From assembly GCF_025602895.1 (NCBI RefSeq), contig NW_026516329.1, positions 1 through 64,000 on the forward strand: a stretch of 64,000 nucleotides of DNA, read 5' to 3'. The stretch comes from Polychytrium aggregatum. Its lineage: Eukaryota > Chytridiomycota > Chytridiomycetes > Polychytriales. Shown piece after piece: positions 6,501 to 63,333 of the stretch. Each line of letters begins with the position of its first letter. The first letter of the stretch is position 1. Position numbers and translations under genes: made by a program. The notes below the pieces were generated by a model. That model did not search any database. It had not been told where the DNA came from and saw only the letters and a list, made by a program, of their open reading frames with translations.

Positions 6501-8582
6501 CGGTCCAAGTCACTGAGAGTGTCATACACTCGCAGTCGGTGGCGGATGAACACCTCGAGGTCACGGATGTTCTCCTCGCTCGAGGGTTCGATTGTCTTGG
6601 TCGGGACTCCATCGAATGCTGCCTTGATGTCCTCCTCGGGTCGGGATGTCAGCAGCAGCTTGAACCACGGACGGGTCCTGCTCAGCTCGACAAAGCGCCA
6701 GGCAAGCAGACTGAGCAGCTGGTCGCGCGGAGAACACTCGTCCAGTCCATCCACCAGGATCATCACCGATCCCTTGGGTCTGTATTCGCCAATGGCTTCG
6801 AGTGGATCAGCAATCACGGCCTTGAACAGATCGTTGATGCTCATCTTGTCGAGATCGTCTTTCTTGTGGCCAGCCTCGAGCAGCTTGCGGCCGATCGGCG
6901 AGTACCACTTGCACAGACCGTATGCGATGGTGTTCAACACAACTCGTGGATCGCTCTTGCGAGTGTCGTTGTACCTGAGGAACAGCGCCGACACCAACTG
7001 TGCGTTTGCCTGGAGGATGTTGGCGATCTGGGCGGCGGCGACAGACTTGCCCACACCAGCAACGGCATTGACCCACAGGACAGTGTCGGTGGTGTCCTGG
7101 TTGACCCACTCGGTAGTCTGGTCGAACAGCCACTGGCGAGTGCCTTCGACAAACAGATGCTCAAGTGCTTGTCTGTCCAGGGTTGAGTCGATGGGACTGA
7201 GGAGGAGTCGCAGGGCGTGGTTCTCGTTGGCAGTGAGGACAGTCGATCCACTCGGCAGATAGGCTGGTACGGTGGCAACGAGGCTGGTTTTCTTCCAAGT
7301 CTCGCGGATCTCGGGGACGAGTCTGTGGATGTGTGAGTCAGCATCTAGATGGTCTGCATCAATGAACTGATGGATGAGACGGATGCCATCAGCAAGTCTT
7401 ACAGACACACTCACTTGGTGACGGCATAGTCGTCGGCGGCAATCAGCGCCTGCAGCTTGAGCAACTCCTCGAGAGTCTGGCGCACGGTGAGGGGAGGGCT
7501 GATCTGGTGCAGGTTGGAGGGACTTGCTCTGTGGCAGTGGATGGCATTGGGAAAGTCGTTTGTGTTGGGGAACCAGTCCCTGGTGTACTTGGTGCCGTCA
7601 ATCATCACACTTGACTTGATGAGGATCGGCAGGATCTGGACGGGCGAGCGGGTGTTCTGGGTCTCCTTCATCTGCTTCAGAGCCAGCTCAATCTGGGACA
7701 GGATCGTCGGTGAGTAGATGGCGAGTGGATGGTGCTGGACTGGATCGACGACTCTCACCTCGAGGAACTGGTTGTCGGGACGGGTGTTGGCATTCTTGGT
7801 TCTCTTGAGTCCAGCCTCGGAAAGGAGGAGCACAATGACCTTGGAGTTGGCCAGGCCGTTCATGAAACCATCCTCCCAGTCCAGTCCGTTCTCGAGACAG
7901 CGGGCGTCCAGGTAGACATGGGAGGGATGCTGCTCGCCGACACGACCAGCACTGAGGGCCGAGTGGAGTTTGACAGCAGTCACCTCCTCACTGGCCACAC
8001 GATAGCTGGATGGATGCAATATCGATGAGATGGATGCGAGATGGATGCGAGATGGATGCGAGATGGATGTGAATGGATCGTGGGCAACAACAATCGCCAC
8101 CAACAAACCTGATGAAGATGTCGTGGATATGGAAGCCGTTGGTGCAAGTCCACTCGGGATTGAGGACAGGCGGGTTGTATTCTCGCTCGTTGGCAGCAGG
8201 AGTGAGGGTCGAGGTAGAAATGGCAACGACTGGAGGGGCAGTGGGAGTTGTGGTGGCAAGTTGGTTGTGGTCCCGTTGGGCTCGATTGATCTTGGTGACG
8301 GCCCCTTCCTTCAGTCCAATTGCCCGCATACTCTCATCTGCCATATCCAGGATCTGGATGGGGATTGGTATCAGCCACCGGGCAGCGACCACACTCTACC
8401 ACCTCATCAGCACATACCGAGTCGATGGTGTCGTATTCGTTGTCCAGCAGACATTGCCTGTTTCTCTCCAGTCCATATCGTTTGAGGAAAGCGTCAAAGT
8501 CGTCTGTTCAGGGCAAGCCACCAGTCAGCTGCTGTGCAAGTGTCCACCATCCTGCCACGATGCGGCACTCACCTCCCGACAT
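3542..8582 (-). CDS. SAM-TIR-NACHT-WD40 NLR-like protein
   Basis: Spliced, about 1,548 aa. Inferred exons (minus strand): 8582-8573, 8503-8418, 8353-8109, 8005-7759, 7692-7415, 7322-3542; the lengths sum to a multiple of three. The protein begins with a SAM-like bundle (residues 3-65). A TIR domain follows (about 107-250): the splice at 8109/8005 creates HDIFISYR, then VYLDARCLENGLDWE and KVIVLLLSEAG. Next is a STAND/NACHT NTPase with Walker A GVGKS (about 378-382) and Walker B VMILVDGLDEC (about 475-485). A helical arm follows, then 13 WD40 repeats from about residue 920, the last one degenerate. TIR domains of the SARM1 type cleave NAD+; Glu198 (FLEIEL) fits the catalytic Glu. By analogy with fungal NWD/HET proteins the WD40 array would sense a ligand and oligomerise the NTPase. 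The gene is divergently paired with the kinase-Sel1 gene. The true C-terminus after the WD array is less certain. Confidence 0.9.
3910..5430 (-). repeat. WD40 coding repeat array (126-bp units)
   Basis: Twelve canonical 42-codon WD40 units plus a degenerate thirteenth, with consensus VNSVAISPDGKWIASGS and then DKTIKVWD. Units 7-8 and 10-11 (about 4,090-4,215 to 4,500-4,670) form a nearly identical two-unit block that occurs twice, which points to recent internal duplication or conversion. Most units end in GH or EH before the next blade. Confidence 0.9.
8029..8075. repeat. Short tandem repeat in TIR-gene intron
   Basis: Imperfect copies of the 10-11 bp unit GATGGATGCGA lie inside the 103-nt intron (8006-8108) that splits the TIR motif DIFISYR. 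Confidence 0.8.
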
Positions 8583-11753: not shown

Positions 11754-14700
11754 TCAACGGAAGAACTTTGCCAGTCCCTTTGGTTTGGCGGCTTCGATTC
11801 TTCTCGCCTCCTCAACCTTTCTTGCCTGCTCTTGCGCAACTCTTGCTTCCTCGACCTTTCTCTCTTCTTCGTACTTTCTAGCTTCGGCATATATCGTTTG
11901 TTCTTGAGCGATTCGCGCCTGTTCTTCGCAGTATGCTGCCACGAGCCGACTTGCAAGGATCGCTGCTGCACGAGCTAGGTTGTGGGGATTATTCGAGTTG
12001 CTGATGTACTTGGCAAACACAACTTGGATTTCAGGGATGCCCAGGTACACAGGCTGATGTTTATTAATGGTTAGTCGGGGGATGTGGGCACTGAAATGGT
12101 GGTCCGACAGACTTACCAAAATATGGCTGACGATCTTCTTGCTGGGGCGGCCAAGATTCAATGGTATCTTGATGGCATGAACTCCGTGGCGGATCCACTG
12201 TGGCTGATTGTCGATTTCAACCCACTCAGCGAATAACAGTGAGCTGGAAGCCGCGACAAAGGACGCCGGACTATCCCAGCTACGGACAAAGCCGTTGCCA
12301 CGACGAACCCAGATGATATCGTTGCCATCGTTTTGACGGGAGAGGATTGAGTTGCCATCGGATGAGATCGCCACGCTGTTGACAGCGCCTGTGTGTCCTT
12401 CGAGGGTGTACTTCAACTGGCCCACGGTAGCATCCCACACCTTGACAGTCTTGTCACTTGATCCAGAGACGAACCATTTGCCGTCGGATGAGATGGCTAT
12501 TGAGCTAACAGCGCCTGAATGACCCTCGAGGCTGCGTTTCAGCTGACCCGTGGTGGCATCCCACACCTTGATAGTCTTGTCGTATGAGCCGGAGGCCAGC
12601 CACTTGCCGTCGGCTGAGATGGCTACGGAGTACACATAATTGATGTGTCCCTCGAGAGTGTGCTTCAGCCGGCCCGTAGTAGCATCCCACACCTTGATAG
12701 TCTTGTCGTATGAGCCGGAGGCCAGCCACTTGCCGTCGGCTGAGATGGCTACGGAGTACACATAATTGATGTGTCCCTCGAGAGTGTGCTTCAGCCGGCC
12801 CGTAGTAGCATCCCACACCTTGATAGTCTTGTCGTATGAGCCAGAGGCCAGCCACTTGCCGTCGGGTGAAAAAGCCACAGAGTTCACCTGACTGGTATGT
12901 CCCACTAGAGTGTACTTCAAACTGCATGAAATAGTATCCCAAAGCTTGATTCTGCTGTTGTTTCCCCTTTCGACCACCGCCACAAGCGTGCCATCAGGTG
13001 AGATTGCCGATTGGAATTTCATCTCCAAATGACTGGTGAAGGCTCTCTCGATTTGCCCGGTGCTTGCGTTCAGATGCTTGATTGTGCAGTCTGACTGGAC
13101 AAGCACAAGCGTCGTGGCATCGGGTGCGGCTATCATGGCTGCAACACCCATTGATATCGATCTCAACTCGCAAGTCGCAGCATTCCACAGCTTAATAGTT
13201 CCATCGCTTGACCAAGATGCAATCCAGGTCCTACCTGGTGAAATCACATATGACCCCACCTCCAATTGTCCCTCCGTCGATTGCACTGGGCTGTCCCAGT
13301 GGCTCTTAAGACCCAGAATAGCCAAGAATGGAATCTTGTCCTCGAGCCGAGAAGCATATGTCTGGTATATCGCCGTCTCCTTTGGAGTGAAGGCATACCC
13401 CGAGTTGTACACCTGAGGTGCACTCTTGCTGATCGGGTCGGCAAATTCGCGGATGAATCGGTGAGTGTCCTTGACCAGTTCCTTCGTGGTATCATCAAAG
13501 GCGGTGCTCGATGCCATTGCGAGTGCTTCCTCCAGCGAGCGAAGCTGTGTGGTAAGCTCTGATATCACATGAGTCAGCGAACCAGCTTCCAGCCAAAATA
13601 GCACATGGCTGGTGAGGAACTGGCTGAGCAAGTCGCCCAAGCCAGACGCACGGTACTGCTTCCAGATCTGCCGGTCAAACGATTCTTCGTTGATGCACCA
13701 CACAAAGTGTGTGATCCAGTGGGCGACGCTATATCGGAGCGATGGTGTAATCTTGGCTCTGACTCGGCCCTCGAGGTCAGGGATTTTGTCGTGAAAGTCG
13801 TAAATGTCACAGATATTGATCACTGGCTCGTGCGAGAGGATCGACAGCAGACACTGGGAGGCGAACGCCATGTGAAACTTGGGGGAGACATGGAACGGTT
13901 CGCTGGCAGACTCGTCTCCGAGCAGATATGCGACGATGGACTTGTGCTTCTGGGCCTTGGCCATTGAGCTGCCTTGCTTGTCGCGGTTCAGTTTGCCGGG
14001 ATCGAGAACGGGTTCGAGCTCCTTGATGCACCGACGGACGATTCGGATGTCAACCCCAAAGAGATCGGTAATCATTCGGATAGTCAGGGGAGACTGTGAC
14101 GTCGCGATGGCCGAGATGAACAGCGGGAGCTGCTGCTGATTGCGGGACTGGGCATAGATATTGGCAAAGGCCCGCTGGTAGCTGGTACTGTCGTTTCCAT
14201 CGGAGACCGCAAACCACAGATCAAACTCATCGTCATCGTCTTCGTCTGAATCAAACTCAGCATCGACATGGAGCAGCTGCAGTGCGTCTGCCAGGCTCTT
14301 GACAGGAATTGGCTTGGACGTGAGCACTGCAGCAGCAAGAGGGGTTTGGGGAGTCAATGGTTCGGGGAAGGACATCCTGGGAGCGGATACTTCTTGTATT
14401 GGCTGGAACGACTCCAAGCGACGAGGGGCGATGATAGTGGGTCTTTGCACCACGTCTTGAATGGGAGAGATCTCAATGGACTGACGGAGGATAGCAAGGA
14501 TTTCGGGGAACTTGGGTCGCTGGGAGGGGTCTTGGTGCCAGCAGCGCTCGATGAGGGCACGGATGTCGTCGGGGATGCCGTCGAACTGCTTGGGACGGTT
14601 GCCTCGGAGGACTTGGCGCTCGATGGCTGTGGGTCTCATTGGCTGGCCATCGTTGGTGACCCAGATGGGCTTGCAGTCATTGAGGATCTCATACATGGTG

Positions 14701-15317
14701 ATGCCGAATGCATAAATGTCTGTGGTTATTGAAGATCCCATGGGGTCGTCATCATCAAGCATCTCGGGTGCCATATAGTCAAGGGTGCCACCAGTTGGCT
14801 GGTCGCGGCGGGTTCGGTTGGCCGTGGCCGAAGTGTGCTTGGTTCTGGCCATGCCAAAGTCAGTCACAACGGCATTGGATGAGCCATCCAGCAGCACATT
14901 GAGGGACTTGAGGTCGCCGTGGACAATGTTGTTGCCGTGGAGATAGGCCATGCCAGAGGCGACTTGATACAGGAGACGGACCTTCTCGCCAAGGGGTCGA
15001 GGGGTATCCGCTGCAGAAATGTGGCTGTGGAGGGTGCCATTGGGCATGAACGGCGAGACCATGAAGGGCTTGGTCGTGGTATCGCAGGCACCGAGGAGTG
15101 GAAGGACATGAGGATGAGTGAGTCTGTGCCAGATGCCGATCTCCCGTCCAAAGTCGGCGAGCTCGTTCTGGTTGTAGCCTCGATAGAGCTGCTTGACGGC
15201 GACAGGGGCGCCGTAGTATGAGGCAGTGAAAACCTCGCCAAAGCCGCCGGCTGCGAGTGGGGTGGCAGACCAGTTGGTGATGGCATCCTCGGGGATGTAC
15301 CAGGATTTCTCAGCCAT
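11754..15317 (-). CDS. TKL kinase fused to post-NACHT arm and WD40
   Basis: 1,166 aa after removal of a 63-nt in-frame intron (12054-12116, GTAAGT...CAG with CTAAC branch). The kinase domain spans about residues 12-285: GGFGEV (24-29), Lys42, HGDLKSLN (133-140, non-RD), DFG (153-155), MAPE (182-185). An acidic linker follows. From about residue 370 the protein matches the arm that follows the NACHT domain of the 3.5-8.6 kb gene, including [33 protein letters not shown] and [12 protein letters not shown]. Next come degenerate and then canonical WD40 repeats, of which three are nearly identical. The end is a charged coiled coil ([20 protein letters not shown]) and KGLAKFFR. It keeps the NLR-like sensor but has a kinase where the SAM-TIR-NACHT module would be. 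The NTPase is absent. Kinase signalling coupled to WD40 sensing is inferred. Confidence 0.92.
12400..12960 (-). repeat. Near-identical WD40 coding repeats
   Basis: WD40 units of 126 bp. The two units at about 12590-12715 and 12716-12841 are identical or almost identical at the nucleotide level, encoding [16 protein letters not shown]. This marks very recent duplication or gene conversion. Confidence 0.85.
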
Positions 15318-18190: not shown

Positions 18191-21100
18191 TCAGAACTCG
18201 TCCAGTTTGTCTTGGGCCTGGGTGTGGCCCTGATCTGCGGCCAGTTGGAGCCAGTATCGAGCCGTCTCCCCATTCTTGGCCGCTCCTTGGCCCAACTGGT
18301 AGCACAGCCCAAGGTTGAATTGAGCGTTTGCATTTCCTTGATGGGCAGCCTTAATGTACCACTCGACAGCTTTTACGGGGTCCCGACTGACGCCACTGCC
18401 ATTGTAGTAGCAAGTACCCAGGTTGTTCTGAGCGTCCGGACTTCCCTGGTTGGCCGACCTGCTGTACCACTCAACAGCCCTGGCATAGTCTTGGTCGACA
18501 CCGTTCCCCGTGTAATAGCACTCTGCGAGATTATCCTGACCATAGGAGTTTCCCTGATTAGCGGCCTTGGTGAACCATTCCACAGCCTTGGAGTATTCCC
18601 GGTCGATTCCGGTGCCGTTGTAGTAACAAAGACCAAGATTTACTTGGGCAACTGCATTTCCCTGTTGGGCCGCCTTTGTATACCACTCGAATGCTTGGGT
18701 CCAGCTTTGGGCGACGCCATAACCGTACTCGTAGCAGAGACCGAGACCGTTCTGGCCGGAAGCATTGCCCTGTTTGGCCGATTTAGAGTACCACTCGAAT
18801 GCCTCGGAATAGTCTTGGTCGACACCATTGCCGTGATAGCAACAGTCACCGAGATCATCTTGACTGGAAGCATGGCCTTGATTGGCGGCCTTGGTGAACC
18901 ACTCCACAGCTTTGGAATAGTTCCTGTCGACACCGTTGCCGCTGTAATAGCAACGGCCAAGGGCATGCTGGCCAAACACATTGCCCTTGTTGGCCGACTT
19001 TGTGAACAGCCTGAAAGCCTGGACGTAATCCTGGCTAACGCCGCTACCACTGTAATAGCAAAGACCGAGGCCGCTCTGGCCATTGGGGTTTCCTTGGCTG
19101 GCCGATCTGGTATACCACTCGAACGCCTTGGTATAGTCTTGTACTGCCCCATTCCCGAAATAGTAGCAGTCACCGAGATAGCCCTGTCCGGATGCATTAC
19201 CTTGATTGGCGGCCATAATATACCACTCGATAGCCTTGGAGTAGTCCCGGTCGACCCCGCCGCCGTTGTAATAGCAGTTGCCGAGATTGGATTGGGCAGC
19301 TGCATTTCCCTGTTGGGCCGCCTTTGTATACCACTCGAATGCTTGGGTCCAGCTTTGGGCGACGCCATAACCGTACTCGTAGCAGAGACCGACACCGTTC
19401 TGGCCGGAAGCATTGCCCTGTTTGGCCGATTTAGAGTACCACTCGAATGCCTCGGAATAGTCTTGGTCGACAACATCGCCATTGTAATAGCAATGGCCGA
19501 GCGCACTCTGGGAATCTGCGTTTCCTTGCTCGGCGGCTTTAAAATACCACTCGACAGCCTTGGCATAATCTCGGCGGACACCACTGCCGTACTCATAGCA
19601 TAAGCCGAGGCTGTGCTGACCATACGGGTTACCTTGACTGGCAGCTTTGGCATACCACTCAAACGCTATGGCATAATCTCGGTCGATACCATTACCGCTA
19701 TAATAGCAGCGACCGACGCAGCATTGGGCATTGGAGTTTCCCTGGTTGGCCGATCTCGTGTACCACTCGAAAGCCATGGCGTGGTCTTGGGCAACGCCGT
19801 TGCCGTACTCATAGCATAGGCCGAGACTGTGCTGGCTATGCGAGTTACCTTGATGGGCAGCCTTGGTATACCATTCAACAGCTTTGATGTAATCCCGATC
19901 GACACCATGACCATTGTAATAGCAAAGACCGAGGCCGTTCTGACCGTTGGGGTTTCCTTGGTTGGCCGATCTAGTGTACCATTCGAAAGCCACGGTATGG
20001 TCTTGCATAGTGCCATAGCCGTTGTAGTAACAGACGGCGATGTTACATTGTGCGTTGGAATTGCCCTGTTTGGACGATCTGGTGTACCACTCGAAAGCCT
20101 TGGAGTAGTCCTGGTCGACTCCGTTGCCGTTGTGATAGCAGACCCCAAGGGCGTTTTGGCCTTGCGAATCGCCCTGGCTGGCCGATTTGGTGAACCACTC
20201 ATAGGATTTGGCATAGTCCTTGGAGACACCATATCCCAGATCAAAGCATTTGCCGAGTAGAAACTGACTGATTGCGTGTCCCTGGTCAGCCAATTTTTGG
20301 AGCATTGTAGCGGCCCGCAGCGGGTCGTCCTTGGTACCGAACCCGCCGATGTAGCATCTCGCGGCCAGATGTTTGCAGAGCCAATCGCCCTCCGATCCAG
20401 ACTCGCAAAGCTTGAAGAATTTGGTGGCGACATCCGAAGACGATCGGACAGATTTGTTGAGATTCAGAGAGTCCTGGCTCAGCCCAAAATCATCCGTCTT
20501 CGACTCGGCCAAGAGCCGGTATCCCCTTCCCACATCCAGTTGTGTCGCGCGACCTAGGTAGCAGTACCATCCCATCATGAATGTGGCGATAGGCTTCATG
20601 GCGGCGTCGTAAGCTTGCTGATAAACCGCTTGCCAGTAGGCGAATGCCTCAGTGTCACTCTTGGCCACGCCGATACCGGTGAAATGCAGCCAGGCTAGCT
20701 CGAACGCTGCTTCGACACTCCCTTTGTCGGCGGACGTATGATAGAGCTTGGACGCGAGTGTCCAGGCGGGGTCGTTGGTCGACTTGCCGTCCGTGATTTG
20801 ACGAGCGGCAGTGAGATGGGCCCCAATTTCGCCACGCTGGATATCGATAACCGTTGCCCGAGAGAGGCCATAGACGACGCTCAGACTCTCAAGAAGTTCT
20901 GGATCGAGAAAGGACTGTGAGGCAAGGGATGTCGGAGGTCGAAGCGGCGTGTTGTCTGTCTCGGCGCCGCCGCGCTCTTCGGATATGTCGCTTGTGATGG
21001 ATAGATTTTGTGGAAGAACAGCAGTGATCTTGGTCGCAGAAGGTGCGATGGCGTTGTATCCAGCCAGAGAGTGGACGACATCAGCAAATCTCGGACGCTT

Positions 21101-22252
21101 GGCAGGATTCTGATGCCAGCACGACTCGATGATTGACCAGATTTCGTTGGGGATACCATCCAATCGGTAGGGCCTTTGGGCGTTGCAAACCGTGCTCTTG
21201 GTCGTTTGAGCTTGCACCGCCAGGTTTTGATCAGACACCCAAACTGGCACGCCGTTGTTCAGGACTTCGTACATAGTGACGGCGAATGCGTAGACATCGG
21301 CCTTGGTGGTGAGGGATGTTGTGGTGTCCAGCATCTCGGGAGCTTTGTATCTATCGGTGGCTCCGATGGCACTGTTGGACCGGCTGGGGTCCATCAGTGA
21401 TGAAGCAAGCCTGGTTCTGGACAGACCAAAGTCGGTGACGACGGCCTGGAAGGAGCCATCCAGAAGGATGTTTGTCGCCCTAAGGTCGCCATGGATGATT
21501 TCTTTGGTGTGCAGATAATCCAGCGCAGATGCAACTTGGTATAGAAGCCGGAGCTTCTCCTCGAGAGCGACAGTGTTCTTCGCAACATAGTCACAAAGTG
21601 TGCCATTTGGCATGAAGGGGGAAACTATGAGCGGAGCGACCTCCTCGCCTGCATCGTCCGGAACACAGACTCCAAGCAGGGGGAGGATATGGGGATGACT
21701 GAGACTCTGCCAAACCCCAATTTCGCTGTGGAAGCTGGTAAGCTCATGGTCTTTTGGAGTTGCGAAGAGCTGCTTGATGGCGACCTTGGAGCCAAAGTAT
21801 GTGCCAGTGAAGACTTGACCAAACCCGCCATGGCCGATGGGGCTGGTGGAACGGTCGGTGATATCTCTCGGGGAGATCCACCAGGAAGGGCGGTCATCGG
21901 GTCGGCGGACAGTCGGTTGGTCGGTCGCCTCGGGCATCTCAGGTATCTCAGGCATCTCAGGCATCTCAGGCATCTCAGGCATCTCAGGCATCTCAGGCAT
22001 CTCAGGCATCTCAGGCATCTTGGGCATCTCAGGCATCTCAGGCATCTTGGGCATCTCGGGCATCTTGGGGCGGATGGGAGGAAAGGGCGGGAGCGGCTCG
22101 CCGTCTGGCTCGTGCTTGGCTTGGGGGCGGTGCCACACAACAATGCGCCACATGATGTCATTGGTGTGTCCGGCTGAACCACGCGTTGTTGGCGAAGAGG
22201 CCACGAGGAACCCAAGATTTGTGAATGGTGATCGGCGTATGTCTGTACTCAT
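18191..22252 (-). CDS. TKL kinase with about 19 Sel1 repeats
   Basis: 1,353 aa if the first ATG is used; a later Met at residue 34 is possible. Order: a 63-residue leader; a run of Met-Pro-Glu/Lys tripeptides (64-108); a TKL kinase (about 125-395) with HGGFGQV, Lys160, HGDLRATN (non-RD) and DFGLSRTR; a linker; then at least 19 consecutive 36-residue Sel1 repeats of the form LGLCYYNGxGVxxDYxKAxEWYxKAAxQGN. Two degenerate repeats precede the array. Blocks of repeats are duplicated inside the array: residues containing LCYEYGYGVAQSWTQAFEW occur twice. A long Sel1 solenoid implies a large binding surface. It is paralogous to the other kinases in the cluster. The GATE-type activation segment GATDRYKAPEM is intact, so an active kinase is likely. 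Confidence 0.92.
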   Translation of the reverse strand: MSTDIRRSPFTNLGFLVASSPTTRGSAGHTNDIMWRIVVWHRPQAKHEPDGEPLPPFPPIRPKMPEMPKMPEMPEMPKMPEMPEMPEMPEMPEMPEMPEMPEIPEMPEATDQPTVRRPDDRPSWWISPRDITDRSTSPIGHGGFGQVFTGTYFGSKVAIKQLFATPKDHELTSFHSEIGVWQSLSHPHILPLLGVCVPDDAGEEVAPLIVSPFMPNGTLCDYVAKNTVALEEKLRLLYQVASALDYLHTKEIIHGDLRATNILLDGSFQAVVTDFGLSRTRLASSLMDPSRSNSAIGATDRYKAPEMLDTTTSLTTKADVYAFAVTMYEVLNNGVPVWVSDQNLAVQAQTTKSTVCNAQRPYRLDGIPNEIWSIIESCWHQNPAKRPRFADVVHSLAGYNAIAPSATKITAVLPQNLSITSDISEERGGAETDNTPLRPPTSLASQSFLDPELLESLSVVYGLSRATVIDIQRGEIGAHLTAARQITDGKSTNDPAWTLASKLYHTSADKGSVEAAFELAWLHFTGIGVAKSDTEAFAYWQAVYQQAYDAAMKPIATFMMGWYCYLGRATQLDVGRGYRLLAESKTDDFGLSQDSLNLNKSVRSSSDVATKFFKLCESGSEGDWLCKHLAARCYIGGFGTKDDPLRAATMLQKLADQGHAISQFLLGKCFDLGYGVSKDYAKSYEWFTKSASQGDSQGQNALGVCYHNGNGVDQDYSKAFEWYTRSSKQGNSNAQCNIAVCYYNGYGTMQDHTVAFEWYTRSANQGNPNGQNGLGLCYYNGHGVDRDYIKAVEWYTKAAHQGNSHSQHSLGLCYEYGNGVAQDHAMAFEWYTRSANQGNSNAQCCVGRCYYSGNGIDRDYAIAFEWYAKAASQGNPYGQHSLGLCYEYGSGVRRDYAKAVEWYFKAAEQGNADSQSALGHCYYNGDVVDQDYSEAFEWYSKSAKQGNASGQNGVGLCYEYGYGVAQSWTQAFEWYTKAAQQGNAAAQSNLGNCYYNGGGVDRDYSKAIEWYIMAANQGNASGQGYLGDCYYFGNGAVQDYTKAFEWYTRSASQGNPNGQSGLGLCYYSGSGVSQDYVQAFRLFTKSANKGNVFGQHALGRCYYSGNGVDRNYSKAVEWFTKAANQGHASSQDDLGDCCYHGNGVDQDYSEAFEWYSKSAKQGNASGQNGLGLCYEYGYGVAQSWTQAFEWYTKAAQQGNAVAQVNLGLCYYNGTGIDREYSKAVEWFTKAANQGNSYGQDNLAECYYTGNGVDQDYARAVEWYSRSANQGSPDAQNNLGTCYYNGSGVSRDPVKAVEWYIKAAHQGNANAQFNLGLCYQLGQGAAKNGETARYWLQLAADQGHTQAQDKLDEF
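18230..20290 (-). repeat. Sel1 coding tandem repeats (108-bp units)
   Basis: About 19 tandem 36-codon units encoding Sel1-like helix pairs. Larger blocks of two or more units are nearly identical (for example around 18640-18820 and 19290-19480), suggesting unequal exchange within the gene. Confidence 0.88.
21935..22070 (-). repeat. 9-bp minisatellite encoding Met-Pro-Glu repeats
   Basis: About 14 copies of CATCTCAGG (plus strand), with CATCTTGGG and TATCTCAGG variants. On the coding strand this gives Met-Pro-Glu, with Lys variants, just before the kinase domain. It is in frame, so copy-number change adds or removes tripeptides without breaking the gene. Confidence 0.9.
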
Positions 22253-27876: not shown

Positions 27877-27950
27877 GGTTTCGTGGTGTAGTTGGTTATC
27901 ACGTGAGTCTAACACACTCAAGGTCTCCGGTTCGATCCCGGACGAAACCA
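27877..27950 (+). tRNA. tRNA-Val(AAC)
   Basis: The acceptor GGTTTCG pairs with CGAAACC. The anticodon stem TGAGT/ACTCA encloses loop CTAACAC, giving anticodon AAC. The T arm is CCGGTTCGATCCCGG. No intron. Only 7 nt separate it from the next tRNA, and no T run lies between, so the two may be co-transcribed. Confidence 0.95.
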
Positions 27951-27957
27951 TTCTTTC

Positions 27958-28031
27958 GCTCCGCTAGCTCAGTTGGTTAGAGCGTGGTGCTAATAACGCC
28001 AAGGTCACAGGTTCGATCCCTGTGCGGAGCA
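27958..28031 (+). tRNA. tRNA-Ile(AAT)
   Basis: The acceptor GCTCCGC pairs with GCGGAGC. The anticodon loop CTAATAA gives AAT, and the T arm is CACAGGTTCGATCCCTGTG. It is followed directly by TTTTT, a Pol III terminator. Confidence 0.95.
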
Positions 28032-28201: not shown

Positions 28202-28217
28202 TCCGCATTGGTCCAGT
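28202..28217 (+). repeat. Target-site duplication, left copy (tRNA-Glu nt 1-16)
   Basis: TCCGCATTGGTCCAGT is identical to nucleotides 1-16 of tRNA-Glu at 33679-33694. It lies directly at the 3' end of the minus-strand LINE. Flanking bases differ on both sides, as expected for a target-site duplication. Confidence 0.9.
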
Positions 28218-28461
28218 CAATAGGTGGGTCTTTATTAAAGACTTTGCCTTAGCGTCCCTTTTGGGCTCTGGCACTGGGTGTTGGCTTTGCCAACCGGGAC
28301 ATTTGGGTCGTCGGTGTACAGCTCTCTATCCCATGGGGCCTGTTTGCGGAGGGACGGCGATGTCAAGTTTTGCCGAACTCATCCATTCAGTGACAGTTTG
28401 GGACTCCAGCTCCGGCTTCCCTGTCCAAGTGTCTGCTCATGCGTCTGGGAGGGTTTCTTTC

Positions 28462-31400
28462 TCAGGTACTTGTTTGCTGCGATTGGTCAGCCCGAGGGGC
28501 CGCTGTCCACGACAGACATTTGGTTGCGATGTCATCCAGCACCGCCACGACATCCAGCCAGATCGCTGGTCTGTTGTTCAGTACTCGGCTGCGCTTGGCA
28601 CGCCATCTTCTCTGTTTTTCAGGATCGGTGGTGAGTGGTCTTGTTGGCACTCGAGCCAACTTGGGGAGTGCGTCGATTGCAAGGTCGATGTAGGTGATGC
28701 CTTCGGGGATCGATGTGGGGTGAACATATTTCTCGAGTCGGTCCTTGGCTCGGACACATTCTGCTGCATGTTTTCTGTTGACATACACCTTGGGGCCGTT
28801 GGGTCCGGTCTTTTTGCACTCCTTGTCGGGTTTAGGTGGGAAACACCCGACTCGCCACAGGAGCATTCTCCTTGCTTGGGCAACTGTTGCTACTGGCATC
28901 CGCGCTGTCAGGATGGGGTCGCCTTCCCACTTGTAGGTGCCTGCGATCGACATTACTTTCTCGGGCTTCCGCTCTTTTTCAAAACTGTGAACGATCACCG
29001 CCTTCTTGATGGGTGTGCCGGTGCCAGTTCCAGATTCAAACAGGTCCAGTCTTGTTCTGTCTGGGGAGTCTCGGTGCTGTCTCTCGAGCTCCTTCCATGC
29101 GGCGCTTCCGGTCAGCTTGGAGAGTATCTTCTTGTTTGGGTTTCTTGGGGGCAACTCGGTGATGTACTTGAGCACGTGGGATCCAAGATATCCTGGGTCG
29201 TCTTTCCTGTCGAACCACCGTCCGAAGCACTTGATCATCAGTATCTGTTTTCTGGTCGCCATGGTGTAGATTCCTGTGGCTGTCATGACAGCCGGACCAG
29301 ACGCGTTCTGGCGGATGTTGAGTGCCGATCGCAGTGTGTCCAGCATGCACCCCTGTAGAGTGTTCATTATCGGGCCCTTCATGTTGACGATGGCAAGGCC
29401 GTACTCCAGACGGGGCCGGATGAAAGCCTTGTAGATTTTGACGATCAGTCCAGGGTAGACTGACTTGCTGAAGATGCCGTGTTCCTTGAGCTCTTTGGTT
29501 CGGAACTGGGCTTTGTGCTTTAGTTGAGTGACGTGGGCCTCTGCGTCGATGCCATCAGGGCCGAACTGCACCCCGAGGTACTTGTAGGTGCTGGTGACGA
29601 AGCTAAGAGGTGTTCCCTTGAGTGTGATTGGGGTCGGGTTTGCTTCCGCGGTAAGCACTTCGCATTTGGTCGGAGAGAAAGCGTAATTGTTTTCGTCTGC
29701 GTGTGCTTCGGAGATGTCAACAAGTCTTTGGAGGTCTTCTTGGTTCTTTGCTACCAACGCCATGTCGTCGGCGTACATGACATTGTTGATGATGAGGTTC
29801 CCTATTCTGGGTGATGTGACTGCTCGTAGGTTCTGTGCGAGGTCATCCATGAAGAGGCTGTAGAGGGTGGGTGAAAGAACCGACCCTTGCAGCAGCCCGA
29901 TCTCCAGCCAGTACGGCCGGGATTTGGTGCCGCTCACGAGAACAGCGGTGGTCACGTTGTCGAAGAGCGCGCGTAGGATGCGGATGGTATGCGGGGGGAT
30001 GTCTCGTTGCTCGAGTTTGTGCCAGAGCCGATCCCGGTCAACTGAGTCGTACGCGGCTTTGATGTCCATGAACGCGATCCACGGGGTGTGGCCGTCGTTC
30101 TGTAGGAACTTGACGATTGAATCGAGTGCGAATACCTGGTCCAGGGTTCCCCTGTTGCTGCGGAAGCCTCCTTGGGAGATGTCGATGGGGCCCATCTCCT
30201 GGAGGAGTCGGCTATGTAAGATGCTTTCGAATACCTTTCGGACAACTTGTAGCAGAGAGATCGGGCGATAGTTCTTGATGTCCTCTTCTTCGCCCTTCTT
30301 CTTCCAGATGGGGTGGTTGATGGCGACATTCCATTCTTGAGGGACGATGCCGGTCCACATGCACCAGTTGAAGAGCTGACGCAGCCAATCCGAGACTTGG
30401 TCGGTTACTGGGTGTAGGAGCTCGGCACTGATCCCGTCGGACCCAGGGGCCTTGTGTTTCCCCATGCGTCGGATGGCTGTTTTTACTTCTTCTGCTGTGA
30501 TTTCGCGGCCCAAGAGGCGACTGAATAGTATTTCCTGAGGACGCGGTGTATCGTTGGCTTCTTGAACACCGAGACGACTTGAGATGTTCCCAAAGTGGGC
30601 CCGGTACTGGTCCATGCTGTCTTGGTCGTTCGGAAGAATCGACCGGTTGAAGAAGCCGCTTTTGACCTTGTCTCGCTTGCTGATTTCCTTGAGGAGCTCA
30701 GAGTCCGATTTGGTGGAGAGAGACTGGGCCCAGGTGTTGTAGAAGGCGCGTTTCTGTCGTCGTATGAGGTCCTTGAGTTTGTTGTTCATGTTTTCGTAGT
30801 CGGCCATGGCCTGCAGTTGGATTCTCGAGCCTTGTGGCGACTGGTTCACGATTCGATAAGCCGTGTTTCGTCGTTTCTTGATGTCAGCCATTTCCGGTGT
30901 CCAAAAGCCGTTGCGGGGAGCCGGGCCATCCTTCTTTCGCTTCCCAATGACGATTTGTGCCACCGCTGTGACGTGGTTCTTGATGATATTCCACCCAGAT
31001 TCAACGAGGGCTTCGGCGTCTTCGCGTGCCATGGGTCCATCCTCTTGTGGTAGCCGGGTTCCCAGCTGTGTGATCTGCTCTACGACTACTGGGTGGTGGA
31101 CTCTAAAGGCTTCCGTGTATTGCTGGAGGGTTTCGGGGTCTTCGAGCTTGTTGGTTCGCCACACGAGGATTGGTGGGCGGGCAGGCTCTCTGGCGGCGTT
31201 CCATTCAAGTTCCATCGACACCATGCGGTGGTCTGAGTTACAGGTGTCGTTGGAGTGGACCGTCACCGTCTTGGCGTTGTGTCTCAGTGCCGTCGAGACA
31301 AAGAAGAGGTCCAGTACTGAGTGTTGTGGTTTCTTCCCGTTGACGACGTGGGTCCAGTGTTGCCCCGTGGGGTTGGTCGAATCCACGAATTCCAGGAAGC

Positions 31401-31959
31401 CGCCCGCTACAGCTGTCCGCAGTGGTTGCAAACGGTTGGCGGTTTCATGGGTGTCTCTGCTTGTCTGGCCCATGCGGGTGTTGAAGTCGCCCATGATCAC
31501 AGATGGGATAGGATTGTTCATTTCTGTGGTGTTGGTCTTGATGGCCGACAGGGCTTCTCGGAACTTTTGCAGGGCTGCCGCATTGGCTGACAGAGCAGGC
31601 TTGAGGTAGAAAGATCCAAAGACGATGCCTCGGAACTTGAACCAGATGCTCGTGTGATGAGGTCCAACGCGGAAGTTGCTAAAGTCTTCGAGGTTGGTGG
31701 TTTTCGGGTTCCGAATGAGGGCGATTCCTCCGGTGCCTCTTGCGAGGCCGTCGACAGAGACATATGGCTCTCGGGTTTCGAAAACTATGAGGTTCTTGTA
31801 AGGTCCGATGGATTGCTGTGGTTTGAGCCACGTTTCTTGGGCTGTTATAAAGTCGAGGTCTTTTGCTTTTACCATTTCGATAACCTCGTGTATAGAGGTT
31901 TCAAGTCCGCAGACATTCAGGGTCGCGAACCTAATAGTGGGCGTAGGTTGGGGCTGCAT
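28462..31959 (-). CDS. LINE ORF2: endonuclease and reverse transcriptase
   Basis: 1,165 aa. The N-terminal exonuclease-endonuclease-phosphatase domain (about residues 8-250) has LNVCGL, the QETW glutamate, MGDFNTR and the terminal SDHRMV. The reverse transcriptase (about 480-780) has NYRPISLL, QGGFRSNRG, FMDIKAAYDSVDR, GLLQGSVLSP and catalytic YADDMAL (near 29,770). A C-terminal Cys/His cluster (CFPPKPDKEC and then HAAEC) is the CCHC-type motif common in LINE ORF2 tails. I see no RNase H domain. Translation appears coupled to ORF1: the ORF1 stop and ORF2 start share a base in TGATG. All catalytic motifs look intact. Confidence 0.95.
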   Translation of the reverse strand: MQPQPTPTIRFATLNVCGLETSIHEVIEMVKAKDLDFITAQETWLKPQQSIGPYKNLIVFETREPYVSVDGLARGTGGIALIRNPKTTNLEDFSNFRVGPHHTSIWFKFRGIVFGSFYLKPALSANAAALQKFREALSAIKTNTTEMNNPIPSVIMGDFNTRMGQTSRDTHETANRLQPLRTAVAGGFLEFVDSTNPTGQHWTHVVNGKKPQHSVLDLFFVSTALRHNAKTVTVHSNDTCNSDHRMVSMELEWNAAREPARPPILVWRTNKLEDPETLQQYTEAFRVHHPVVVEQITQLGTRLPQEDGPMAREDAEALVESGWNIIKNHVTAVAQIVIGKRKKDGPAPRNGFWTPEMADIKKRRNTAYRIVNQSPQGSRIQLQAMADYENMNNKLKDLIRRQKRAFYNTWAQSLSTKSDSELLKEISKRDKVKSGFFNRSILPNDQDSMDQYRAHFGNISSRLGVQEANDTPRPQEILFSRLLGREITAEEVKTAIRRMGKHKAPGSDGISAELLHPVTDQVSDWLRQLFNWCMWTGIVPQEWNVAINHPIWKKKGEEEDIKNYRPISLLQVVRKVFESILHSRLLQEMGPIDISQGGFRSNRGTLDQVFALDSIVKFLQNDGHTPWIAFMDIKAAYDSVDRDRLWHKLEQRDIPPHTIRILRALFDNVTTAVLVSGTKSRPYWLEIGLLQGSVLSPTLYSLFMDDLAQNLRAVTSPRIGNLIINNVMYADDMALVAKNQEDLQRLVDISEAHADENNYAFSPTKCEVLTAEANPTPITLKGTPLSFVTSTYKYLGVQFGPDGIDAEAHVTQLKHKAQFRTKELKEHGIFSKSVYPGLIVKIYKAFIRPRLEYGLAIVNMKGPIMNTLQGCMLDTLRSALNIRQNASGPAVMTATGIYTMATRKQILMIKCFGRWFDRKDDPGYLGSHVLKYITELPPRNPNKKILSKLTGSAAWKELERQHRDSPDRTRLDLFESGTGTGTPIKKAVIVHSFEKERKPEKVMSIAGTYKWEGDPILTARMPVATVAQARRMLLWRVGCFPPKPDKECKKTGPNGPKVYVNRKHAAECVRAKDRLEKYVHPTSIPEGITYIDLAIDALPKLARVPTRPLTTDPEKQRRWRAKRSRVLNNRPAIWLDVVAVLDDIATKCLSWTAAPRADQSQQTST

Positions 31960-33575
31960 CAGTTGCGGGGAGGAGTGGTTCCTTCGCGTCCGCCTTTTTC
32001 TTGGCGGCCTGGTTTGTTGCGAGCCAGTTCCTTCGCCTTAGCAGTGATCTGCTCGGCGACGGCTGGGTCGTTCATCTTCCGTTGGTACAAGGTCGCCGTG
32101 AGGAGGTCATTGGATTCCGCACATATCCTGGCAGCGCGTTCAATGAAGCTCTTGATTTGGAGCTTCTTGGACTCCTTCTCGGCCTCGGTGATCTTCGACA
32201 CGTCCATGTGTGCGACTTCAGTGAATTTCATGTCCGTAATGTGCTTCAAGAATTCTTCTCTCGAGCTCTTGTCTCTGAGAACAAACTCACAGACGCTGTT
32301 GTTGACAAAGCTGATATTGAGAATCTGGTTGGTGGCAAAGCCCTTCTCCTTGAAAGCTTGTCTGATCGTGCGGTAGCTACCCCGAGGGATACCCTTGACG
32401 TAAACCCAAGCGGCGTTGTCCATCCTATCCTTTAAGGGTCCTTCCTCGACAGGGACCGAGGATCTGATCATCCTGAATGGCGTGGCAGTCTTGGGCACCA
32501 GCCACTTGCCGTCGGTGGGGTCACGGCCGCGGAGGATGGCGCCGATGGCCTCGTTCTTCTTGCCGGCATCGGCCTCCTGGTGGACTTTTTCGAGGGCCGC
32601 CAGCTTGCGCGCGTCGATTGTCTTGTTGTCGGGCTGCTTCTTGGCACCCCGCTGGGCGGCTGCTGCGTAGGATGTCGGAGCTGGGCGTTCCGAGATGGCC
32701 CGGGACGCATGCTCCAGCTCGGAGGCGAGCGTCTGCATGCACTCGGTGGCGCTCTGGGTCAGGGCCTTGATTCTAGCAGCTTCCTCGGGCTTGCTGAGGT
32801 CCAGCTTGGCGAGTTCTTCGTTAATCTTCTGAGCTTTCTTGAGAAGCTCACTCTGGATGTGCTGAAGCTGCTGTTGGGGACTCTGCTTCTTGCGCATGTC
32901 GGTGGCGCAGACGCGCTTCCCGACAGCCCTGGCATCGGCGAGGGAGGCCCGTTGTTCGAAAAGCTTCCATCCGGCTTCGTCATGGCGGGTCATCAGGCCC
33001 CAGAATACGAGGATGGAAAAATGCTTCCCGCATTCTTCCACCTTGGTGGCGGCGTCCGGGCTCATCAGCATGTTCTTGCAGACGACCGAGTGCTGGGCGT
33101 CGTCGATACGCCAGGCGGGGGGCTTGCTCCCTCTGCAACGGGAGCATTGAACTTGGTCTGCCTTCAGAGCGAAGACAAACCTAAAGCGGCGGTAGGTGAT
33201 GTCTTTGAAATCGACCGGGATGAAGTCCTGGTCGGTGAGAGTGTTGTTCTTGGCCTTCTCGAGGATCGAGAGGGCCCACTTCTTTTCTTCAACCACGTCG
33301 GGCGGGTTGGGAAAGATTGCCGAATCTGCATAGAGCTCTTCGATAATTTCTTCGACGGTCTTCTTGCGACCGACGTGCAGCTGGATGGGCTCACCATCCC
33401 TGCGGTGCTTTTTGGTGGGTGCTGATTCGGTGGCCTCGGTGATATTGGCGCTACTGACCTGATGGCCGTTGCTTCCTAGGCTGCGATTTTCGTCCGGTTG
33501 GCCTGGTTCTTGGGCAGCAGAGCTGCCCGAGGTGTCTATGGCCATCTCGTTGATGGCCGTTTGGGTCGGGGGCAT
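31959..33575 (-). CDS. LINE ORF1: nucleic-acid-binding protein
   Basis: 538 aa from MPPTQTA. A longer frame would start inside the tRNA genes and is rejected. The N-terminus is Ser/Glu-rich. A Cys-containing region (QCSRCRGSKPPAW and a later VVCKNML...EECGKHF) may bind zinc. Next is a predicted coiled coil (about residues 255-330, QLQHIQSELLKKAQKINEEL). A C-terminal RRM-like fold follows, with WVYVKGIPRGSYRTIRQAF and then VNNSVCEFVLRD. LINE ORF1 proteins trimerise and coat the RNA. No classic CCHC knuckle is seen. It ends in TGA overlapping the ORF2 ATG. Confidence 0.85.
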   Translation of the reverse strand: MPPTQTAINEMAIDTSGSSAAQEPGQPDENRSLGSNGHQVSSANITEATESAPTKKHRRDGEPIQLHVGRKKTVEEIIEELYADSAIFPNPPDVVEEKKWALSILEKAKNNTLTDQDFIPVDFKDITYRRFRFVFALKADQVQCSRCRGSKPPAWRIDDAQHSVVCKNMLMSPDAATKVEECGKHFSILVFWGLMTRHDEAGWKLFEQRASLADARAVGKRVCATDMRKKQSPQQQLQHIQSELLKKAQKINEELAKLDLSKPEEAARIKALTQSATECMQTLASELEHASRAISERPAPTSYAAAAQRGAKKQPDNKTIDARKLAALEKVHQEADAGKKNEAIGAILRGRDPTDGKWLVPKTATPFRMIRSSVPVEEGPLKDRMDNAAWVYVKGIPRGSYRTIRQAFKEKGFATNQILNISFVNNSVCEFVLRDKSSREEFLKHITDMKFTEVAHMDVSKITEAEKESKKLQIKSFIERAARICAESNDLLTATLYQRKMNDPAVAEQITAKAKELARNKPGRQEKGGREGTTPPRN

Positions 33576-33678
33576 GTGGAGGGGGTCGTTGGTTGAGAGT
33601 GTTGAGCGGTTTGTTGATAAAAAGAGCGACGGAGAGCCTGTGCCTGTGGATCCAAAAGTTGAGATCAAGGTCAAGCTC

Positions 33679-33750
33679 TCCGCATTGGTCCAGTGGCTAG
33701 GATTTCTCGCTCTCACCGAGACGGCCGGGGTTCGATTCCCCGATGCGGAA
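33679..33750 (+). tRNA. tRNA-Glu(CTC)
   Basis: The acceptor TCCGCAT pairs with ATGCGGA. The anticodon stem TCTCG/CGAGA has loop CTCTCAC, giving CTC. The T arm is GGGGTTCGATTCCCC. Its first 16 nt are the right-hand target-site duplication of the LINE, so the functional gene was regenerated by the insertion; its upstream flank is now the LINE 5' end. Confidence 0.95.
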
Positions 33751-33754
33751 TATC

Positions 33755-33826
33755 GGTTCCATAGTGTAGCGGTTAGCACTCAGGATTCTGACTCCTGCAA
33801 CCCGAGTTCAAATCTCGGTGGGACCT
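33755..33826 (+). tRNA. tRNA-Gln(CTG)
   Basis: The acceptor GGTTCCA pairs with TGGGACC (one G-U). The stem CAGGA/TCCTG has loop TTCTGAC, giving anticodon CTG. It starts only 4 nt after tRNA-Glu and is followed by a T run, so Glu-Gln may be a dicistronic Pol III unit. Confidence 0.94.
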
Positions 33827-45125: not shown

Positions 45126-45198
45126 GGGCGTGTAGATCAGTGGATAGATCGTCTGACTTCGGATCAGAAGGTCGCAGGTTCGAACCCTGTCTCGCTCG
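45126..45198 (+). tRNA. tRNA-Arg(TCG), copy 1
   Basis: The anticodon stem TCTGA/TCAGA has loop CTTCGGA, giving TCG. The D stem is GATC/GATC and the T arm GCAGGTTCGAACCCTGT. The acceptor GGGCGTG/CTCGCTC has a G-U at pair 2 and a T-T mismatch at pair 6. An identical 73-nt copy is at 63261-63333 on the other strand, which argues that the unusual acceptor is tolerated. Confidence 0.85.
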
Positions 45199-46095
45199 CA
45201 TTGTTTTGCTCCTCTCTCCCTGACGAGTCTCTCCGTGTTCACAATCTGTCTCTCAGCGTTTCCAAAATGAAATGGGACACCCCGTTTTGAGCCATGCCGG
45301 GGCTTTTTTTCTGTGACCTGTATACACCCATCCACTCATTGCGTTCATGGCCAAACACAGCACCCTCGATTTCCGCATCGCTGCACTCGGAGGCTGCCAA
45401 AGTGATCTGTTCTATTTCTTATGGCATAGTTAGACGCATGCCATCGCATACTACGCTGACAAATGGGTTGTTGGCAGGTGTCCCAGTGTCCCATTTCCCC
45501 CTGAATCCAGTGTACACAACTTTTTTTCTCTCTCTCTCCTTTGTCAGCTCGCCTGGATATGGTCTGCATTAGATGTATTTGCCCAGTCGCTACTTGGAAA
45601 AAAGGGAAGGACATGCTGACGGATCCCGCTGTGCATTTTGCTGGCGATTGCTCGTCCAGCACGCCGACATTTCCCTCAATCATCTCATCGCCATATACCG
45701 ATATTAGCACGGCCTACGCACTCCGGGGATCTTCAAACCAACCCATTCACACTGCCAGGCCACGCCCGACTCTGTGTTCTGGCTTGCAGCAAAGCCAGAA
45801 CCAGGACTCTCCTGTCCCAACAGAGAGCCAAGCGCATCCCGGCACCACATCGATATGGGAGAGGAACAAACGAGCTACTTACTAGGGAGTGTGTGTAAAA
45901 GCAACGGTATGTACATGTGTCATTGGAGGGAGGGGAAAGGGGGGGGGAGAAACGGAGAAACGGAGAAACGGAGAAGAGGAGAAGAGGAGAAGAGGAGTAG
46001 AGGAAAAGAGAAGCGGATGGCAGGTCCGCCACCTCCACGAGTCATCGAGTTGTCGTTCAAATCAAAAGTCAGGGAGGAAGGGAGGAGGCCCATGC
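45199..46095. other. Intergenic region
   Basis: About 900 bp between tRNA-Arg and the stop of the C2H2 gene. It includes a purine-rich GGAGAAACGGA tract (about 45940-46015). No supported gene. Confidence 0.5.
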
Positions 46096-55580: not shown

Positions 55581-56522
55581 TTGAGCGAGCGATGCGTTTC
55601 TGGATCTGAATCGAGGACGCCACTGCGCAGTATCTCTGCCAGCCCAAAATGCGCTGGTTTTGAAGAGAATTTTTCTTCCCCAAGGGCAGAACCAGCCATC
55701 GCTGCTATTTTCTCGCCAGATGGCTCCCCGCAAGAGAAAGACACCACCCAGGCGACCAAGTGGATCCAGAGCACCCACAAGATCCTTGGTCTGCAGCAAT
55801 GGATGAGCACCACACCAAGTCCCAAGATCCCCGGGTTGGCTCCCTTCCTGCAATATATTCGCCATGTGTTCGATGGAGACATGCTGGAGAAACAGCTGTA
55901 CTTCAGCCTGACCCGGCGACGGCGATTCAAGCGACTCGATCTCCACAGCAAGCGACAGCGCACCGTCCACGAGATGTGCAAGCAAGTCATCGACCAGGCA
56001 CCAAAGGAGACCGAAGTGGTGATTGCCTTTGGGAATGCATCCTGGAAGCAAGGGAAGGGATACGCATCCAGTCCCAGGAGACTCAGGTTCGCCAAGTACT
56101 TTGAGCAATTCCACCACCACCAGAGACGCCCACCAGACCGATCCGTCTCCAAGATCCATGTGTGCTCGGTGAACGAGTTCAACACGTCCCAGGTGTGCTC
56201 ACATTGTCGGGAAGCCAAGCGACTCGAGAAGGTCGAGTATCTTGATATCGAGAAACCACACTTTGTCCGGAGCTGTGCAAGCTGCCATACGCTGTGGGAT
56301 CGAGACGTCAATGTAGCCAGGAACATGGTCTCGGTATGCCAGTCGATCATCGCCACAGGAGATCGACCGGGTGTATTCAAGACTGTGCTTCCCAAACCAA
56401 CGAAATCAAGGAGATTGCCGACGAAGACAGGAGTGCAATGCCATGGCCTACCCGCTGGGCCTACAAGTCAGTCAGCGGGGTTCAGAAGCCAGAAAGTGAC
56501 TGTCCCGTTTCTTTCTGGATAG
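55581..56522 (+). mobile_element. Fanzor (eukaryotic TnpB-like) nuclease, C-terminal half
   Basis: An open 313-codon frame. From about residue 105 it matches the C-terminus of Fanzor RNA-guided nucleases. The RuvC-II region VVIAFGNASWKQGKGYASSP lacks the canonical Glu. The strand SVNEFNTSQVCSHC carries Glu199, which fits the alternative catalytic Glu described for Fanzors. Zinc-ribbon cysteines are C206/C209 and C232/C235, and RuvC-III is LWDRDVNVARNM. Fanzors are relatives of IS200/605 and IS607 TnpB and cut DNA with a guide RNA derived from the element's 3' end. The N-terminal REC/wedge part and RuvC-I Asp are not seen in this ORF or the 1 kb upstream, so this looks 5'-truncated unless distant exons exist. 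The first 90 residues have no Fanzor similarity. IS607-like recombinase sequence lies at 2.7-3.3 kb. Confidence 0.82.
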
Positions 56523-63058: not shown

Positions 63059-63260
63059 CTTGAGGTGGTACATTTTGACTCGAATTTTGCATCGGTTTGC
63101 GGATGTTTTCTGCTCGCTGGCTCCTTTGCTTGCGTACTGAGAAAGCGACAAAACCCGAAGAATAGCGTGCGATTTCGATCCTCAGTCCCCACTCCGGTCG
63201 TCGCAGGTTCGGGCGGCTCCGAAGGTCAGCGATGGAAAATCACTGTGAGTCAAAACATTG

Positions 63261-63333
63261 CGAGCGAGACAGGGTTCGAACCTGCGACCTTCTGATCCGA
63301 AGTCAGACGATCTATCCACTGATCTACACGCCC
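63261..63333 (-). tRNA. tRNA-Arg(TCG), copy 2
   Basis: Identical over 73 nt to the copy at 45126-45198, including the acceptor T-T mismatch, but with different 5' flank. Anticodon loop CTTCGGA. Confidence 0.85.

Follow-up and report, generated by a model that had tools for sequence, protein, structure and literature searches.

Integration into a tRNA gene with restoration of that gene is familiar from prokaryotic integrative elements, which rely on site-specific recombinases and usually rebuild the 3′ end of the gene from sequence that the element itself carries. Among non-LTR retrotransposons, the elements at tRNA genes tabulated in a 2018 review (TRE5, TRE3, NLTR-A, and NLTR-B) all lie outside the gene, as far as the passages of that review go (PMC5911963). 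These dictyostelid elements are found at the tRNA genes of compact genomes, in flanking windows upstream or downstream, and the TREs carry two ORFs and an apurinic-type endonuclease (PMC5006619, PMC5911963). In the excerpts of the literature drawn on here, landing beside the gene is presented as the way in which tRNA-targeting LINEs limit harm, and transposons inside RNA genes are said to be tolerated because the genes have many copies. DNA transposons of the Dada type are of the latter kind; they occupy fixed positions inside tRNA genes, many of them at the A box (nt 8 to 13), and the cited passages describe a DDE transposase and a duplication of 6 to 7 bp (PMC3706591, PMC8869645). Fixed positions in or near multicopy RNA genes are likewise used by R1, Keno (U2), Mutsu (5S), and Dewa, all with an APE-type endonuclease; R1, Keno, and Mutsu target rRNA or U2 genes, Dewa targets a tRNA-Leu spacer, and the passages in question make no claim of target repair by these elements (PMC3706591, PMC4640811).

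Here, we describe a full-length LINE of the chytrid Polychytrium aggregatum that lies at a fixed base inside tRNA genes, with the interrupted gene rebuilt. The element was found in the first 64,000 nt of contig NW_026516329.1 (referred to here as the window), in antisense orientation to a tRNA-Glu gene (Table 1). The 16-mer TCCGCATTGGTCCAGT, which corresponds to nt 1 to 16 of this tRNA, matches exactly at two places in the whole window, one at each end of the LINE, and no third match was found in the window with up to three mismatches allowed. The duplication, which the first-pass annotation had described as starting at tRNA nucleotide 1, comprises exactly 16 bp, with differing bases beyond each edge, and the tRNA is intact. 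Given the base composition of the window, the probability of an exact 16-mer match at one given place by chance is ∼2.6e-10. A search of the window gave no second copy of the LINE.

Table 1. Positions of the LINE, its target, and associated features in the window, and sister-family junctions elsewhere in the assembly
Feature	Position	Strand	Remarks
tRNA-Val(AAC) and tRNA-Ile(AAT)	27877..28031	+	Same tRNA cluster, upstream; ARAGORN, Rfam
Left copy of 16-bp target-site duplication (tRNA-Glu nt 1-16)	28202..28217	+	At LINE 3′ end; single copy in empty site L114
Full-length LINE, 5461 bp	28218..33678	−	5′ end 33678, 3′ end 28218; boundaries from junctions of other copies
3′ UTR	28218..28461	−	No poly(A) tail; AATAAA 13 nt from end; conserved 3′ core common to sister family
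ORF2, 1165 aa	28462..31959	−	Endonuclease PF03372/PF14529 and reverse transcriptase PF00078
ORF1, ∼538 aa from first in-element ATG	31959..33575	−	Start read from translation; approximate
Right copy of 16-bp duplication (nt 1-16 of regenerated tRNA)	33679..33694	+	Putative first nick on + strand, 33694/33695
tRNA-Glu(CTC), regenerated, intact	33679..33750	+	ARAGORN (anticodon) and Rfam
tRNA-Gln(CTG), neighbor of target tRNA	33755..33826	+	ARAGORN, Rfam
Sister-family 5′ ends at tRNA-Ala(AGC)	L054-L058, L124, L129-L139		Junctions read

Both ORFs are open, as had been noted from the sequence at first pass, and the stop codon of ORF1 overlaps the start codon of ORF2 (TGATG, read from the sequence). 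The Pfam matches of ORF2, which are above cut-off, identify an apurinic-type endonuclease and a reverse transcriptase; no RNase H family was among them, and ORF1 gave no Pfam match. In a comparison with the PDB, ORF2 matched R2 and L1 ORF2p, and the endonuclease gave a weak match to L1-type entries (best E value, 2.2e-4). The element combines an endonuclease and a reverse transcriptase in ORF2 with a target-site duplication and no LTRs, which are the features of an APE-type LINE. A scan of viral contigs with ORF2 retrieved no relative. Taken with the copies described below, this is almost certainly an active or recently active non-LTR retrotransposon with a fixed insertion place inside tRNA genes, the tRNA being restored.

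The window LINE shares with the dictyostelid elements its placement at a tRNA gene of a compact genome, and with the TREs its two ORFs and type of endonuclease. However, its duplication consists of tRNA nt 1 to 16 and its putative nick falls inside the gene, which it rebuilds, whereas the TRE and NLTR integration windows lie outside. NLTR-A and NLTR-B, in the descriptions cited, carry RNase H, and none was found in the window LINE. The nearest arrangement is that of NLTR-A in Dictyostelium purpureum, 2 to 6 bp upstream of the mature tRNA; neither "TSD" nor "target site duplication" occurs in the main text of the source (PMC5006619), and a hidden duplication in NLTR-A is conceivable. Dada elements resemble the window element in the position used but differ in their proteins and in the length of the duplication. 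Prokaryotic integrative elements differ in the part of the gene rebuilt, which in the window LINE is the 5′ part, and in the means, which here is the duplication. The R1/Tx1 clades, among which Mutsu and Dewa are placed, likewise use a fixed base of multicopy RNA genes; for the window LINE, this is a likeness of site use, not a clade assignment. We found no description, in open-licence papers, of a LINE that inserts inside a tRNA gene and rebuilds it. Set against the descriptions of known systems, the window LINE is a new form of tRNA-targeting, site-specific LINE integration.

Further copies were sought in the assembly (64.7 Mb in 418 contigs), which contains at least 42 matches to ORF2. Those listed include 12 full-length matches at ∼99.5 to 100% identity without a stop (family 1), as well as more distant families at ∼76%, 61%, and 31% identity. 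As a sign of specificity, the first-pass annotation had named further junctions at nt 1/16 of tRNA-Glu together with duplications of 16 bp, and junctions of this form did recur, at several tRNAs: in all 12 near-identical copies examined at both ends, tRNA nt 1 to 16 is present exactly at each end, the element's 3′ end being followed by the reverse complement of the 16-mer and its 5′ end abutting nt 1 of the same tRNA. The target is tRNA-Glu(CTC) in 4 copies, tRNA-Ala(CGC) in 2 (one of which, on C411, lacks the first two element bases), and tRNA-Gly(GCC) in 6, and it is intact. Random insertion sites, which the annotation had named as a contrary outcome, were absent for near-identical copies. 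Exact element 5′ ends occur at 17 places in the assembly, all of them abutting tRNA nt 1 and all with a whole tRNA found by ARAGORN; by coordinates, 15 are flush with Glu, Gly, or Ala, and the other 2 are at tRNA-His(GTG). Because the latter two share their tRNA-side flank, they were counted as one locus. At the other end, at least 17 full-length 3′ UTR matches were found, and among those listed, the tRNA 16-mer that follows is exact in 16 and imperfect in 1 (C37).

The number of independent events is lower than the number of copies, since some contigs share flanks: one flank is common to C40, C114, C18, C37, and C266 and another to C39 and C257. Such sharing speaks for an assembly artifact or the segmental duplication of a single insertion, a reading that we nevertheless regard as exceedingly improbable and that is refuted by distinct flanks. 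The junction table has 15 family-1 rows (12 with both ends and 3 with the 3′ end only, among the latter C37), and a hand count gave 11 distinct outer 3′ flanks, to which the tRNA-His locus is additional; the copies also involve several tRNA species and three forms of 3′ junction. Exact tRNA 25-mers were counted 31 times in the assembly for tRNA-Glu, 39 times for tRNA-Gly, and twice for tRNA-Ala(CGC). The element is present at both of these tRNA-Ala(CGC) genes, whose surroundings differ, and ARAGORN finds both of the genes intact. In four contigs (C70, C222, C312, and C339), a tRNA-Gly begins at base 3, two bases after the contig start. Contigs may therefore be broken where elements are inserted, and the copy numbers given here may be too low.

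The first-pass annotation had also considered that the left 16-mer might be a piece of tRNA in the LINE's own 3′ end and not a target duplication. Extra bases (ACTG or ACTATTG) at some 3′ junctions are in keeping with this, as the last few bases of the element RNA may resemble the target, but the 16-mer changes with the tRNA that is hit (Glu, Gly, or Ala) and is therefore not part of the LINE; in addition, it agrees in all 12 copies with the tRNA on the opposite side of the element, and the empty sites contain it once. This outcome was absent for near-identical copies and is extremely unlikely, being refuted by the Gly and Ala copies.

As a control, we used a third LINE family from the same genome (∼31% identity), which ends in poly(A). 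Seven copies were fetched and one without a tail was excluded; only 3′ ends were scored, against an incomplete set of tRNAs. A tRNA 10-mer was present in the next 60 nt in none of the six copies, compared with 15 of 15 for family 1, and all six scored flanks were non-tRNA and mutually different. This comparison bears on a further explanation, namely, that insertion is widespread and that selection has kept only those copies that spare a tRNA. Any insertion is subject to selection, and compact tRNA clusters could be tolerant surroundings. Intergenic insertions would survive as well, however, yet none of the 17 exact 5′ ends lies away from a tRNA, and the flanks of the third family show no such pattern; we therefore consider this explanation very unlikely.

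Older relatives of the element give a less uniform picture. Among the other 25 3′ UTR matches listed, a tRNA-Glu-like junction is present in 11 (5 exact 16-mers and 6 mutated ones) and none in 14. Six of these 14 miss the element's last bases. The remaining eight, which reach the end, are 74 to 82% identical, represent three distinct flanks, and adjoin sequence unmatched to the incomplete tRNA set. Such unrecognized flanks may be unseen tRNAs, decayed tRNAs, or real off-targets of older lineages. No tRNA junction was found at the end of four relatives at ∼75% identity (L020, L021, L027, and L028). Complete 3′ ends of older relatives beside sequence not recognized as tRNA are those at L083 to L086, L014/L090, and L095/L096, where other targets are possible.

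A comparison with an uninserted locus, as suggested at first pass, could be made within the assembly. In a counterpart of the window locus (C235:52180-52450, L114), the left flank runs straight into an uninterrupted tRNA-Glu, and the sequence matches the joined window flanks except for one base in a T run. C49 holds the empty counterpart of the C346 copy, with zero differences from the joined flanks, and C20 that of the C224 copy, with two flank substitutions. The 70 bases that precede a stack of copies at C367:103380 likewise occur beside an uninterrupted tRNA-Glu at C367:96504 and C356:123212. Judged from sequence, the empty counterparts are alleles or near-identical paralogues. Zn_clus matches number 27, in keeping with a fungal host, and many come in pairs of equal score, pointing to an assembly that includes parts of both haplotypes. 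Ribosomal L3 gave matches of about the same strength in many eukaryotes.

These junctions can be accommodated by the following mechanism. The ORF2 endonuclease would make its nick within the A box, separating nt 16 from nt 17 of the tRNA-sense strand (AGT^GG), and the freed 3′ end (...CCAGT, ending in T16) would serve as the primer from which the element RNA is reverse transcribed, beginning at its 3′ end. In many copies, this primer apparently pairs with a terminal ACTG of the RNA. The other strand would be cut opposite nt 1, and fill-in would duplicate nt 1 to 16, so that the downstream copy and the rest of the gene would together form a whole tRNA, the two internal promoter boxes included. 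With a complete tRNA rebuilt, the gene keeps its sequence and the target site remains available. Across the 11 distinct flanks, the 3′ junction has no extra bases in 7, ACTG in 3, and ACTATTG in 1. Such a pattern is in line with an element RNA that would end in approximately ACTG, either paired with the primer or copied whole, with occasional slippage. A constant 3′ junction with 0, 4, or 7 extra bases would likewise fit target-primed reverse transcription. The last 183 nt of the window LINE fold no better than shuffled sequences (z score, −0.51). Conserved between families is a 3′ core that consists of CAGTGCCAGAGCCC, a variable four-base loop, and GGGACGCTAAGGCAAA (four sequences); it may be a binding site of the reverse transcriptase.

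Repeated hits on a rebuilt tRNA predict stacks of copies parted by tRNA fragments, and such stacks were found. At C367:103380-103800 (L104), an intact tRNA-Glu(TTC) is preceded by two element tails of 85 nt, both of which have a tRNA 16-mer of their own. In C39 and C257, after a full-length copy (with ORF2 in two frames) come a tRNA-Gly 16-mer and, next to it, the apparent 5′ end of another, diverged copy. The two tails in L104 are truncated at the same base and possibly represent a short nonautonomous derivative; very short 5′-truncated tails (85 or 168 nt) with tRNA-Glu 16-mers were also seen at C346:51427 and C49:20379.

A sister family, with ∼61% amino acid identity to the window LINE in ORF2, has a poly(A) tail, in contrast to family 1. 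For this family, 5′ ends and stack junctions were read. Its 5′ end occurs at 22 places (copies, not independent events), all of them exact in a search that allowed one mismatch. Intact tRNA-Ala(AGC) follows in 17 of these, directly in 8, after one extra G in 8, and after two in 1; the first four bases of tRNA-Ala(AGC) are all G, so slippage may account for the extra G. The other five (L017, L018, L019, L025, and L125) are stack junctions, at which two copies are held apart by a short poly(A) stretch and a fragment of tRNA-Ala that is 14 nt long and, in L017 and L025, mutated. The length of the fragment places the sister-family nick at nt 14/15 of tRNA-Ala(AGC).

With respect to target choice, the fixed nick site in tRNA genes that was proposed at first pass stands as to its place, but the site is not peculiar to tRNA-Glu, as several tRNAs with AGT^GG at nt 14 to 18 are used. 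The targets of family 1 (Glu, Gly, Ala, and His) share the consensus T-R-G-Y-N-Y-A-G-T^G-G. Other tRNAs with AGTGG at the same place, including Asp, Thr, Val(TAC), and Arg(TCG), are represented by none of the 17 exact 5′ ends. The 14-base motif TRGYNYAGTGGYWR occurs at 215 places in the assembly (100 of which were listed), compared with 311 for the reversed control pattern; hence, it probably occurs outside tRNAs as well, and the element is likely to use a longer site or to be aided by Pol III factors. We infer that the element's endonuclease would recognize the site directly. It is also possible, with a likelihood that we put somewhat short of even, that the endonuclease has little sequence preference and that Pol III factors, either TFIIIC bound at the A box or TFIIIB, tether the element and set the nick position. 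Among young copies, exact 5′ ends are found at tRNAs without exception even though TRGYNYAGTGGYWR probably also occurs elsewhere, and for TRE5-A, the cited passages report that B boxes are necessary and that the ORF1 protein contacts TFIIIB (PMC5006619). On the other hand, the junctions here are exact to the base, compared with a spread of several bases or more in the available descriptions of TRE5 and NLTR-A; moreover, AGT^GG is common to all family-1 targets seen, and the sister family uses another tRNA at a position two bases away. Tethering concerns how the site is found, is compatible with the remainder of the main explanation, and could act jointly with direct recognition.

In a broader reading, we consider it probable that these elements belong to an undescribed LINE lineage, of at least two families, that uses tRNA genes as renewable landing pads. 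The A-box nick, with a stagger equal to the distance to nt 1, would make each insertion yield a complete tRNA and a fresh target, and head-to-tail copies would accumulate beside one working tRNA; the Pol III-bound region maybe serves as a divergent promoter. Rebuilt targets explain the tandem LINE stacks at tRNA genes. In family 1, the cut is internal and yet the gene sequence remains whole, even for tRNA-Ala(CGC), which was found twice and hit both times. Landing would thus be harmless and would leave the tRNA open to the next hit. The place of the nick and the length of the stagger seem fitted to the host gene, which makes for a testable case. The junctions further suggest a natural endonuclease specific to the tRNA A box, with harmless targeted insertion as a possible use.

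Several other features of the window were observed in passing. Its tRNAs are often closely paired (Val-Ile, Glu-Gln, and Thr-Thr), and two identical tRNA-Arg(TCG) genes lie in opposite orientations at 45126-45199 (+) and 63260-63333 (−). Three very long open ORFs, all on the minus strand, encode a WD40-repeat protein (3542-7414), a protein kinase with WD40 repeats (11754-15317), and a further protein kinase, in which 19 Sel1 stretches were found (18191-22252). An ORF at 55581-56522 (+) contains a Cas12f1-like TNB domain (PF07282) in this eukaryotic genome and encodes a protein that resembles the Fanzor/TnpB type.
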